From Candidatus Gastranaerophilales bacterium (GTDB taxonomy: Bacteria; Cyanobacteriota; Vampirovibrionia; Gastranaerophilales; Gastranaerophilaceae), in the NCBI GenBank assembly GCA_944324905.1, contig CALUYB010000003.1:62001-126000 (forward strand): a stretch of DNA of 64,000 nucleotides. Direction: 5' to 3'. Below are positions 23,414 to 47,931 of this stretch, piece by piece. Numbering within the stretch: the first letter of the stretch is position 1; each line of letters opens with the position of its first letter. The notes beneath the pieces were generated by a model, which saw only the letters and a list, made by a program, of their open reading frames with translations, made no database searches and was not told the origin of the DNA. Made by a program: the position numbers and the translations under genes.

Positions 23414-25795
23414 TTAATTGTACTCCGTCCAGTACAAATAAACATATCCGTTTTGTCCATTACCACCATAGCCCGGGTTGTTTGTCGGATACATCGTAGT
23501 ATTATACGCGTATCCGCCACCGCCTCCGCCGGCTCCTGCTTTGCCATAATCAGCAGCGTCAAATATATTAGATGGTGAAACAAATACTGGACTTAAACCA
23601 AATGCACCGGTTGCAGAGCAACTTCCGCCATTATCAAATAATGCTCCACATCCTCCTTCGCTTTGAACTCCACTTTTTCCGCCATTTCCACCAATTGCGC
23701 CAATATCTCCTGCACTTCCATCACTACCCTTAGCCCCTGCAACAGATGTTCCGGTACTTAATTTAGAAGCACCATTACCACCTACACCATGGACAACAGA
23801 AGCAGTTGAACTTGCGCTGGTTCCAGCAGTACCGCCTTTGCCGCCACTTAAAGTATAACTTACACTACCAAAAGTAACTTTACTTTCTCCACCATTTGAG
23901 CCATTATTTGCAACGGCTCCACCATTACCACCGCCACCAACACGAATAACATAATTAGTAGAAGGTGTAACAGTTATATTTTCAACTTTTAACATGGCAC
24001 CACCGCCGCCACCTCCGCCTGCAGCAGGGTCGTAAACTATGTCATAGGTAATTTCTGCTACTCCATTTGCTCCTTTTCCTCCTGCTCCTGCGGTTGCAAC
24101 ATCAGAAACAACTTTTGTTGTTCCACCGCCGCCGCCTGAGCCATAAAGTGACCCGTTACCACCATTTACAGAACTTGAGCTGCCACCATTACCACCTCCG
24201 GATAGCGATGTTGTATTATACATTGAGCCTCCGCCAACACCGCCACCGGCTGCAGTATTACTATCTGTTACTTGTAATTTATTTCCATTATTTCCTGCAC
24301 CGCCAACACCTGAGCAGCTTGTATTTGTCCAACTTCCATTTTGAAATATCTTACAGCTATTTGTACTTACACTACTTCCACCATTACCAAAAGTAGACCC
24401 AGTCGCTCCCTTTCCTCCATTTCCACCTGAAGCTTTTAATCCCCATTTTAAATTTCCATCCGCGTCATACAGTGCTATGTATGATTCAGAACCATTGTTA
24501 CCATTGCTCGCGTTAGATCCAGATGAACTTGCTTTATTTCCACCTTTTGCCCCAGGAGCAGAATACAATACAATCCTTCCTCCAATGTTATTTGAAATTA
24601 CACTTTCAGGAATTTGATAGTTCTTAAAATACCCTCCAGCACTACCTCCACCACCTGAGTAGGAGTTATATGTCGAGCCTCCGCCCTCCAGGACACAGCG
24701 AACCGAATCGGCGTAGCGAGGACCCTGACTGCTCTGACTGAAGCTACCACTGTCCAGGCCGAAATAGTAGTAATTGCTGCCATTAGGTGTAGAAGACCAC
24801 ACCTCTCTCGGGTAGCAGAAACCATTGGTAGCCCCGTCGCAAACGCTGTAAATGGCGCAGTGCGCTGCGCCGTAACCGGTGCCGTAGTCACAGAGCCTCA
24901 AGCCGTTATCACCTTTGTTTTTGTTAATAGATGAAATATTTGTTTTCCATTTAGCCATCTCATCTTTTGTTGGTAATCTCCAATCACCTGCTTTTGTGCC
25001 ATTGTATGCTAATGCTTGACAAGAGGCGTTACCGGCGTACCAGGTGCATACTGTTCTGTTGCATCCGCTGTAAGTTGTGCCTGAACTATCACATGAGCCT
25101 GCAGTGTTTCCTTGCCAGCAGCATGCGTTAGCATTGCAAGTTCTGTTAGTTTGAACAGTTGTAACACTTGCTGCTATCCCGCCATTTGTTGCTGATGGGA
25201 TATCCCCAATATTCCACTTGGTAACACATACACCTGTTGATGTTCCATTTTGTGCTGGTGTTAAGTATTTCGCATCATATTTATCGCAATCAGCCTGAGA
25301 TGTTGGCACTTTACCCGCTGTTTCAACCCATGCTCCGCCGCCTCCGCCGCCGCCTGAGCCTGCTAAATATGTAACTGTAAAATTTTTCATGCCTTTTGTA
25401 ATTGTAAACTCTTGAGTTTTAGCACTGCCAATTGTAGCGTTTGTTACAGTTAATTTTTTTCCATAGTCATAATTAGGCGTTGTAGCTCCAGCACCTCCGC
25501 CACCGCCTGAGACCATGACAACATTCATGCTTTTAACACCAGAGCCTGTTCTAAAAGTACAATCAAGAGCATTTTGCCCAGAAACTGCAGAGCAGTTTGG
25601 ATCGGTTGGATTATACAAAAAAAGTTTACTTTCTTTTTTAGTACTTCCTCCTCCGCCTGAAACATTAATGTTACTTGTCACCCTTTTGGTGATGACAGGG
25701 GCTAAAACTACCATAATAATTGAAATAATAAGAGTTGACACCAGCAATTCTGCTAGAGTAAAGCCCAAAAGGGCGTTCAAAGCACGTTTTTTCAT
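23414..25795 (-). CDS. Giant glycine-rich type IV prepilin-like protein with lectin/FGE-like insert
   Basis: A prepilin leader (MKKRALNALLG, cleavage before FTLAELLV, with Glu5) and a hydrophobic helix ending in APVITKR mark a type IV pilin or pseudopilin. The chain is about 793 residues, several times a normal pilin. The rest is strongly Gly/Ser/Asn-rich with repeated GGGG blocks, resembling a glycine-rich adhesin. Inside it (about 24690-25330) sits a Cys-rich domain with DWRLPTKDEMAKW and VWSSTPNGS...SVRCV, like DUF1566/FGE-type C-lectin folds. I chose ATG 25795 because GGAGAAG lies 9 nt upstream; an in-frame ATG at 25813 is possible. Likely surface-exposed. See the separate entry for the GC-rich patch. 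Confidence 0.75.
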   Translation of the reverse strand: MKKRALNALLGFTLAELLVSTLIISIIMVVLAPVITKRVTSNINVSGGGGSTKKESKLFLYNPTDPNCSAVSGQNALDCTFRTGSGVKSMNVVMVSGGGGGAGATTPNYDYGKKLTVTNATIGSAKTQEFTITKGMKNFTVTYLAGSGGGGGGGAWVETAGKVPTSQADCDKYDAKYLTPAQNGTSTGVCVTKWNIGDIPSATNGGIAASVTTVQTNRTCNANACCWQGNTAGSCDSSGTTYSGCNRTVCTWYAGNASCQALAYNGTKAGDWRLPTKDEMAKWKTNISSINKNKGDNGLRLCDYGTGYGAAHCAIYSVCDGATNGFCYPREVWSSTPNGSNYYYFGLDSGSFSQSSQGPRYADSVRCVLEGGGSTYNSYSGGGGSAGGYFKNYQIPESVISNNIGGRIVLYSAPGAKGGNKASSSGSNASNGNNGSESYIALYDADGNLKWGLKASGGNGGKGATGSTFGNGGSSVSTNSCKIFQNGSWTNTSCSGVGGAGNNGNKLQVTDSNTAAGGGVGGGSMYNTTSLSGGGNGGSSSSVNGGNGSLYGSGGGGGTTKVVSDVATAGAGGKGANGVAEITYDIVYDPAAGGGGGGGAMLKVENITVTPSTNYVIRVGGGGNGGAVANNGSNGGESKVTFGSVSYTLSGGKGGTAGTSASSTASVVHGVGGNGASKLSTGTSVAGAKGSDGSAGDIGAIGGNGGKSGVQSEGGCGALFDNGGSCSATGAFGLSPVFVSPSNIFDAADYGKAGAGGGGGGYAYNTTMYPTNNPGYGGNGQNGYVYLYWTEYN
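24686..24905 (-). other. GC-rich lectin-like segment, candidate DGR variable region
   Basis: Within the prepilin gene this stretch is clearly richer in G and C than the AT-rich genes around it. Read in frame, most codons end in C or T (for example TAC TAC TAT TTC GGC and GAC AGT GGT AGC TTC AGT), as expected if AAY codons of a template were replaced by NNY. It encodes the VWSST...DSVRCV part of a C-type-lectin-like fold, the usual place of variable residues in diversity-generating retroelement targets. No reverse transcriptase or template repeat is in the window. Confidence 0.45.
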
Positions 25796-25853
25796 ATCAA
25801 AATTCTTCTCCATATTCAGGCTATTTGCCTGAGTGACATGTACAAAATACCAC

Positions 25854-47589: not shown

Positions 47590-47931
47590 ATGAAAATAAA
47601 AGCTTTTACAATGGCAGAAATGCTTATAACAATACTTATGATATCAATCGCTATGATTGTTATGGCGCCAGTTATGACAAAAAAAGCAAAAGAGCCCCTG
47701 CCGCAAGTCGTTGTTAAAGAAGGCCAAACGTTGCCAAAAGGCGCAATTATCCTATATTACGGAGATGATATTCCAGATGGCTGGCAAGAGTGCAGTGGAC
47801 AAAGCTTAGATGGTGAAGAATTTAAAGAACTAAAAGAAAACATCTCAAATTATTCATATTTGCCTGATTTAAACCAGCTTTTTCAAGCAACAGATACAAA
47901 TTTAAAATGGATTATAAAAGTAAAAAAATAG
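47590..47931 (+). CDS. Prepilin-like protein fused to a phage tail-collar-like domain
   Basis: The N-terminus MKIKA-FTMAEMLITILMIS is a type III/IV prepilin signal with Glu5 and a hydrophobic helix, ending in MAPVMTKKAK like the giant prepilin at 23414 (APVITKR). Residues about 45-113 resemble a tail-collar domain: LPKGAIILYYGDDIPDGWQECSGQ. In phages this domain sits on tail fibres. Here it may form the exposed tip of a minor pilin. At 113 residues it is a very small pilin. It lacks a Shine-Dalgarno but has TAGAAT 6 nt before the ATG. Confidence 0.75.
   Translation: MKIKAFTMAEMLITILMISIAMIVMAPVMTKKAKEPLPQVVVKEGQTLPKGAIILYYGDDIPDGWQECSGQSLDGEEFKELKENISNYSYLPDLNQLFQATDTNLKWIIKVKK

Follow-up and report, generated by a model that had tools for sequence, protein, structure and literature searches.

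The GC-rich segment in the gene of a type IV prepilin-like protein, located in a 64-kb stretch of DNA (the window), is very probably the variable repeat (VR) of a diversity-generating retroelement (DGR) and forms part of a lectin-like domain. The VR is regarded as a DGR product because a reverse transcriptase (RT), an Avd protein, and two template repeats (TRs) are present in the same genome, and because the substitutions in it are concentrated at template adenines. As read from the assemblies, the system comprises the RT, Avd, templates, a shared homing-site sequence, adenine bias, a covarying leader, and a family of paralogous targets. Relatives of the bacterium appear to draw their expressed VRs from libraries of silent cassettes. 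The genome that contains the window is designated G000, and the relatives discussed below are G003, G004, G012, G013, G050, and G079.

Table 1 Features of the prepilin-like target gene in the window, the template repeats of G000, and the silent cassettes of relatives.
Feature	Location	Strand	Remarks
Target gene, 799-residue prepilin-like glycine-rich protein	window 23414..25813	-	One of ten domain-bearing paralogues in G000
Prepilin-type N-terminal segment, residues 17-44	window 25682..25765	-	Weak model matches, all below curated cut-offs
Lcl_C/DUF1566 lectin-like domain, residues 233-374	window 24692..25117	-	Pfam PF07603, E 9e-7, and fold model
Probable DGR variable repeat (VR), residues 305-374	window 24692..24901	-	Adenine-biased differences from TR1/TR2 of G000 and TRa/TRb of G003
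Homing-site-like (IMH-like) 3′ end of VR	window 24687..24712	-	Common to templates and paralogues
Glycine-rich domain, residues 598-795	window 23429..24022	-	PF21722, E 1e-7, over cut-off
TR1	G000 C1:208825-209038		~2.8 kb from RT
TR2	G000 C1:17118-17331		Same contig as RT; ~193 kb from C1:210254
Tandem array of G004, 31 cassettes and three leader elements	L089 8048-17050 (G004:C1:341047-350049)	one strand	Adjoins RT, Avd, and target prepilin
Cassettes of G050, at least 114	L098, L099, L176-L184 (about twelve contigs)	one strand in each contig	Spacers mostly unrelated

The GC content of the VR is 0.564, compared with 0.435 for the rest of the gene and 0.345 for the whole window. Segments of 210 nucleotides with a GC content at the level of the VR start only at positions 24670-24690, when the 64 kb are scanned in 10-nucleotide steps. 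Codons ending in C or T constitute 81% of the VR (n = 68) and 57% of the remainder of the gene (n = 732). The VR is internal in the protein rather than C-terminal, and its 3′ end, TTCGGTTCGCTGTGTCC, is identical or nearly so across the TRs and VRs. The Lcl_C score of residues 233-374 is 29.7 bits, just short of the Pfam cut-off of 34.9, and the Lcl_C/DUF1566 domain was matched in 30 of 35 relatives (E ≤ 0.01). The structure of the domain was modeled with confidence (pLDDT 92), and the model could be aligned to C-type lectins, FGE, Legionella Lcl, and the DGR protein Mtd with Z-scores of 4.5-7.8. Alignments with Z-scores below 8 provide modest evidence for the predicted lectin/FGE-type fold; Foldseek alone identified zero PDB matches at E ≤ 0.001. 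An earlier model calculated from alignment A3 was poor (pLDDT 45) and was excluded from the reading of the fold. An earlier note on the window had described a GC-rich segment with codons ending in C or T and had proposed a lectin/FGE-like fold for it; the composition and the model agree with both.

The same note had placed the RT outside the window. The only match to RVT_1 over the cut-off in G000 is indeed located on another contig, and the search of the genome identified a DGR RT together with Avd: the RT is 395 residues long, and an Avd-like open reading frame (ORF) is positioned immediately upstream of its gene. The hallmarks of DGR-type RTs are an IGxxxSQ-like motif and YxDD; IGNLTSQ and YVDD are invariant in the alignment of ten RTs from G000 and nine relatives. 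The best match of the RT profile among solved chains is 8ub7 (E 9e-41), which we take to be the RT of the DGR from phage BPP-1, and the runner-up has an E-value of 1.8e-11. The Avd-like ORF matches bAvd and NF033474 (E 4e-9), below the curated cut-offs. Relatives of the RT occur in 45 of 383 genomes of the family (E ≤ 1e-40). The RT of the sister species G003 is 96% identical to that of G000, and the RT of G004, from the same genus, is 73% identical. Genomes carrying close RTs are labeled as Candidatus Gastranaerophilales or Melainabacteria MAGs, and several hits of the contig scan as uncultured bacterium. A contig labeled Alphaproteobacteria (L239, PFTR01000045.1) encodes an RT with 49% identity, and a 128-nucleotide repeat pair at 91% is located nearby.

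When the VR from the window was used as a DNA query, nine further clear copies were found in G000. Two of them, TR1 and TR2, lie outside prepilin frames and have conserved flanks. Both are homologous to positions 24690-24900, for which a near-identical template repeat had been predicted, but an exact template of the window VR is absent from the assembly. TR2 and the VR of the RT-adjacent prepilin C1:210254 differ at 14 of 213 aligned positions, and all 14 mismatches are at adenines. TR1 adjoins C1:210254, while TR2 is ~193 kb away from it, which implies action in trans. A clean offspring VR of TR1 was not found in G000. TR2 contains an in-frame TAA stop codon, which the VR of C1:210254 has lost through changes of adenines.

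The templates of G003 are TRa and TRb. Between TRb and the RT-adjacent VR of G003, differences are present at 21 of 62 adenines and 2 of 149 other positions. The window VR aligns without gaps to TRa of G003, from which it differs at 22 of 56 adenines and 13 of 156 other positions (p 6e-7); the corresponding differences from its own TR1 are 21 of 53 and 21 of 159 (p 7e-5). Substitutions relative to TRa are enriched at adenines, yet they are not confined to them. The bias is absent from four control comparisons of TRs with each other (p 0.39-0.80). C9:69828 of G003, in which the regular expression found no core, was left out of the comparison of templates with VRs. Most of the repeat pairs beside other RTs of the family (12 loci) are adenine-sided: the adenine-sided fraction is 0.91-0.95 in G212, G112, G253, G329, G165, and G149, 0.82 in G060, 0.75 in G035, and 0.32-0.45 in G087, G131, G183, and G278. 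The proposed randomization of template adenines is supported by the adenine-only differences between TR2 and C1:210254 and by the excess of adenine differences between the window VR and TRa.

Since the window VR is adenine-biased but has non-adenine differences from every template found, it is read as a DGR product whose exact template is missing from the assembly. Judging from these comparisons, it descends from a related TRa-type template that would have changed since then in G000 or would lie in an assembly gap. A one-breakpoint mosaic test of the VRs from G000 and G003 against five TRs, performed without a null distribution, reduced the numbers of non-adenine mismatches moderately, from 13 to 8 for the window VR. 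The window VR may still be a live target of the system. A tenable but somewhat doubtful alternative is that the window VR is fossil: it would have been made by the DGR in the past, its template would since have changed, and it would now drift as part of an ordinary paralogue, while VRs of the C1:210254 type stay live. The 13 non-adenine differences from TRa and 21 from TR1, and the absence of a matching template from the assembly, are consistent with a fossil; by contrast, the reading frame and the homing-site end of the VR are both intact, a TRa-type template persists in G003, and the G000 assembly, being in 24 contigs, could have missed a template. It is highly improbable that the differences arose by ordinary divergence after duplication of a lectin domain, without involvement of a retroelement: some paralogue pairs are equally divergent over the 200 residues downstream of the VR, but the substitutions relative to an untranslated template are restricted to adenines in C1:210254, adenine bias recurs in further pairs and not in the TR-TR controls, and the closest paralogue is 60% identical in the VR and 98% identical downstream of it.

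In the proposed DGR mechanism, the RT-Avd complex would reverse-transcribe a structured non-coding template RNA composed of the leader, TR, and homing site. Template adenines would be randomized during copying, and the cDNA would replace the VRs of the prepilin paralogues in trans. The system may be active at present, and the target protein may be displayed on a pilus. The leader and terminal elements (n = 11, from four genomes) have a common three-helix structure, in which 92% of the alignment cells pair and two-sided changes are found in 35 cells. The mean number of two-sided changes in shuffled controls is 11.8, with none of the 500 shuffles reaching 35, and slid controls reach at most 8. 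In G000, G003, and G013, the leader recurs after the RT-linked type of TR, together with a homing-like end, and the array of G004 ends in the same arrangement. A terminator-like hairpin, recognized by eye, follows the terminal element in G000. A search of the TR-bearing loci against Rfam identified nothing but a tRNA, and the TR leader pattern was not found in viral contigs. One base is missing from the terminal homing-like end (TTCGG-TCGC type) in all four genomes that were compared (G000, G003, G013, and G004). The same one-nucleotide deletion causes a frameshift in the RT-adjacent VRs of G003 (C8:72173), G004 (C1:339675), and G012 (C58:90); it is absent from the RT-adjacent or RT-linked VRs of G000, G050, and G079. 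The shared deletion hints that this position may mark the start site of the cDNA.

Silent VR cassettes are present in G004 (31), in G079 (31), and in the fetched regions of G050 (at least 114); the latter two genomes belong to another genus. The counts include units with at least 45 model positions of the HMM, and the expressed VR of G050 on contig C26 is not among the 114. The cassettes form tandem arrays in G004 and G079 and are clustered in G050. The spacers of the G004 array are 38-44 nucleotides long, with a single 316-nucleotide gap that holds a second leader and one short unit. The VR frame is free of stop codons in all 32 units of G004 (31 silent and one expressed), 102 of 114 in G050, and 29 of 31 in G079, whereas the best of the other five frames is stop-free in 3, 32, and 2 units, respectively. 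The N-terminal half of the lectin domain was not found beside the silent cassettes of the three genomes, and the two matches to it in these loci belong to expressed genes. The possibility that the cassettes are broken full-length genes was rejected, because the N-terminal half of the domain is missing and the spacers in most tandem arrays are 9-44 nucleotides long. When silent cassettes are compared with each other, the adenine bias is weak and about equal in both directions. The strict homing-site motif has 29 copies in G004, all on one strand, and is present in 5 of 191 genomes of the family; the backward control for the motif gave zero in all genomes among the matches listed.

Libraries were found only alongside the RT, and most RT carriers are without one. 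Among the 19 genomes scanned, the number of domain matches is 124 in G050 (genome-wide), 68 in G035, 36 in G004, 31 in G079, 14-19 in G183, G260, G278, and G329, and 0-4 in the other RT carriers. Four genomes from the same genus without an RT match have one or two domain matches each, and fourteen further genomes outside the set of RT carriers have zero. A silent library in G000 is ruled out, as all 12 of its domain matches are accounted for by ten prepilins, TR1, and TR2. The matches listed for G035 (e.g., L155 61-2028) are mostly in long frames, many of ~1000 residues, and one frame contains three domains in tandem.

The RT-adjacent VR of G004 is identical to the cassette L089 15476-15689, except for one A-to-T change near each end and a one-nucleotide deletion. 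In a leave-one-out comparison, the coverage of the expressed VR is also attained by 2 of the 31 silent cassettes of G004, a nearly identical pair, and the result is weaker than that for G050. The VR in the prepilin start on contig C26 of G050 contains exact stretches of 37, 64, and 59 nucleotides from three cassettes on three contigs. Silent-cassette 30-mers cover 92% of its 157 nucleotides, and none of the 114 cassettes equals that when left out in turn. The RT contig of G050, C118, carries the C-terminal part of a prepilin that starts in a different VR tail, 56 nucleotides of which are identical to a fourth cassette. The content of C26 and C118 is complementary, which suggests that each holds a part of the same gene; in that case, the sample would contain two variants side by side. 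Alternatively, the two contigs may originate from different strains or from two genes. In G079, one cassette matches the RT-linked VR at both of its broken ends (55 and 37 nucleotides). As a control, five VR-like genes of G050 outside RT linkage were tiled over 0-20 of their 264-297 nucleotides.

In the pilE/pilS system of Neisseria and the vlsE/vls system of Borrelia, a single expressed surface gene receives segments from silent, incomplete copies. The relatives of G000 resemble these systems in the silent partial-copy donors and in the mosaic expressed VR of G050. However, the libraries described here are linked to a DGR RT, their cassettes have the limits of TRs and VRs, and TR-type flanks are present in G004. 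The chances are about even that the cassettes of G004, G079, and G050 are moved by ordinary homologous recombination, in the style of silent pilin loci, and that the DGR is only their historical source. Of the 49 adenines in the G004 copy, two are changed (P 2e-5 at the rate of TR2 in G000), and the near absence of adenine changes from copies favors recombination or faithful reverse transcription. The exact stretches of 37-64 nucleotides in G050 and 37-55 nucleotides in G079 are also in line with recombination. In contrast, the coincidence of cassette limits with those of DGR repeats, the DGR leaders and TR-type flanks in the G004 array, the position of expressed VRs next to the RT or on contigs complementing the RT contig, and the restriction of strong libraries to RT carriers argue against it. 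On present evidence, we lean slightly towards ordinary recombination as the mover of the cassettes.

More tentatively, it is possible that this DGR lineage has turned a single template into a library, in which the RT copies cassettes and switches templates to produce mosaics. One kind of RT would then either randomize adenines, as in G000 and G003, or shuffle an archived set of variants combinatorially. The synthesis of cDNA would start at the conserved terminal leader-plus-homing element, which would explain why the one-nucleotide deletion of this element is found in the RT-adjacent VRs of G003, G004, and G012.

The system of G000 resembles the DGR of Bordetella phage BPP-1 (brt, avd, TR, and VR in mtd) in having an RT with Avd, a non-coding template, a homing-site end, and an adenine-biased VR in a lectin-like fold, with Mtd among the fold matches. 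Unlike in BPP-1, the templates are not positioned between avd and the RT gene, and one of them is ~193 kb away; there are ten prepilin targets, a leader upstream of the TR, and a VR internal to the protein. DGRs with several TRs and VRs are described, and pilin-like DUF1566 proteins mentioned, in the available portion of PMC6642488; together with the DGR of Treponema denticola (PMC4891356, available portion), they share with the present system the use of more than one template, many targets, and DUF1566 domains. Unlike the relatives with libraries, neither of the two sources, in these portions, describes a silent cassette library or a cassette mosaic, and silent libraries are likewise not described in the available portions of PMC8144416, PMC10907252, PMC12875486, and PMC12632263. 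The last of these reports, in the part at hand, the diversification of type V pilus tip pilins of Bacteroides by DGRs, which is a similar pilus-linked DGR target in a gut bacterium; however, those targets are type V lipoprotein pilins, whereas the N-terminus of the protein studied here is type IV prepilin-like. In the open-licence literature, DGRs co-occur with silent cassettes in a general review, PMC5745447, and with gene conversion and antigenic variation in that review and in PMC5816788. No publication was found there on DGRs in Melainabacteria, retroelements in Gastranaerophilales, or DGRs in Vampirovibrion- taxa, which is not proof of absence; nor was any found on a DGR with a silent cassette library, and the paper listed for template switching and mosaics in DGRs was off topic.

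In G000 and its relatives, which are closely related gut bacteria, mutagenesis by a retroelement is linked with variation from silent cassettes, two mechanisms otherwise regarded as distinct. Should the RT be the mover of the cassettes, surface proteins would be shuffled in an RNA-templated manner from a stored set of variants. With ordinary recombination as the mover, the genomes still document the conversion of a DGR-type repeat into an archive of over 100 variants. The contrast of G000 and G003 with G004, G079, and G050 makes the question of the mover directly testable. Elsewhere in the window, an ORF on the plus strand (47590-47931) matches the Phage Tail Collar domain (PF07484, E 1e-6).
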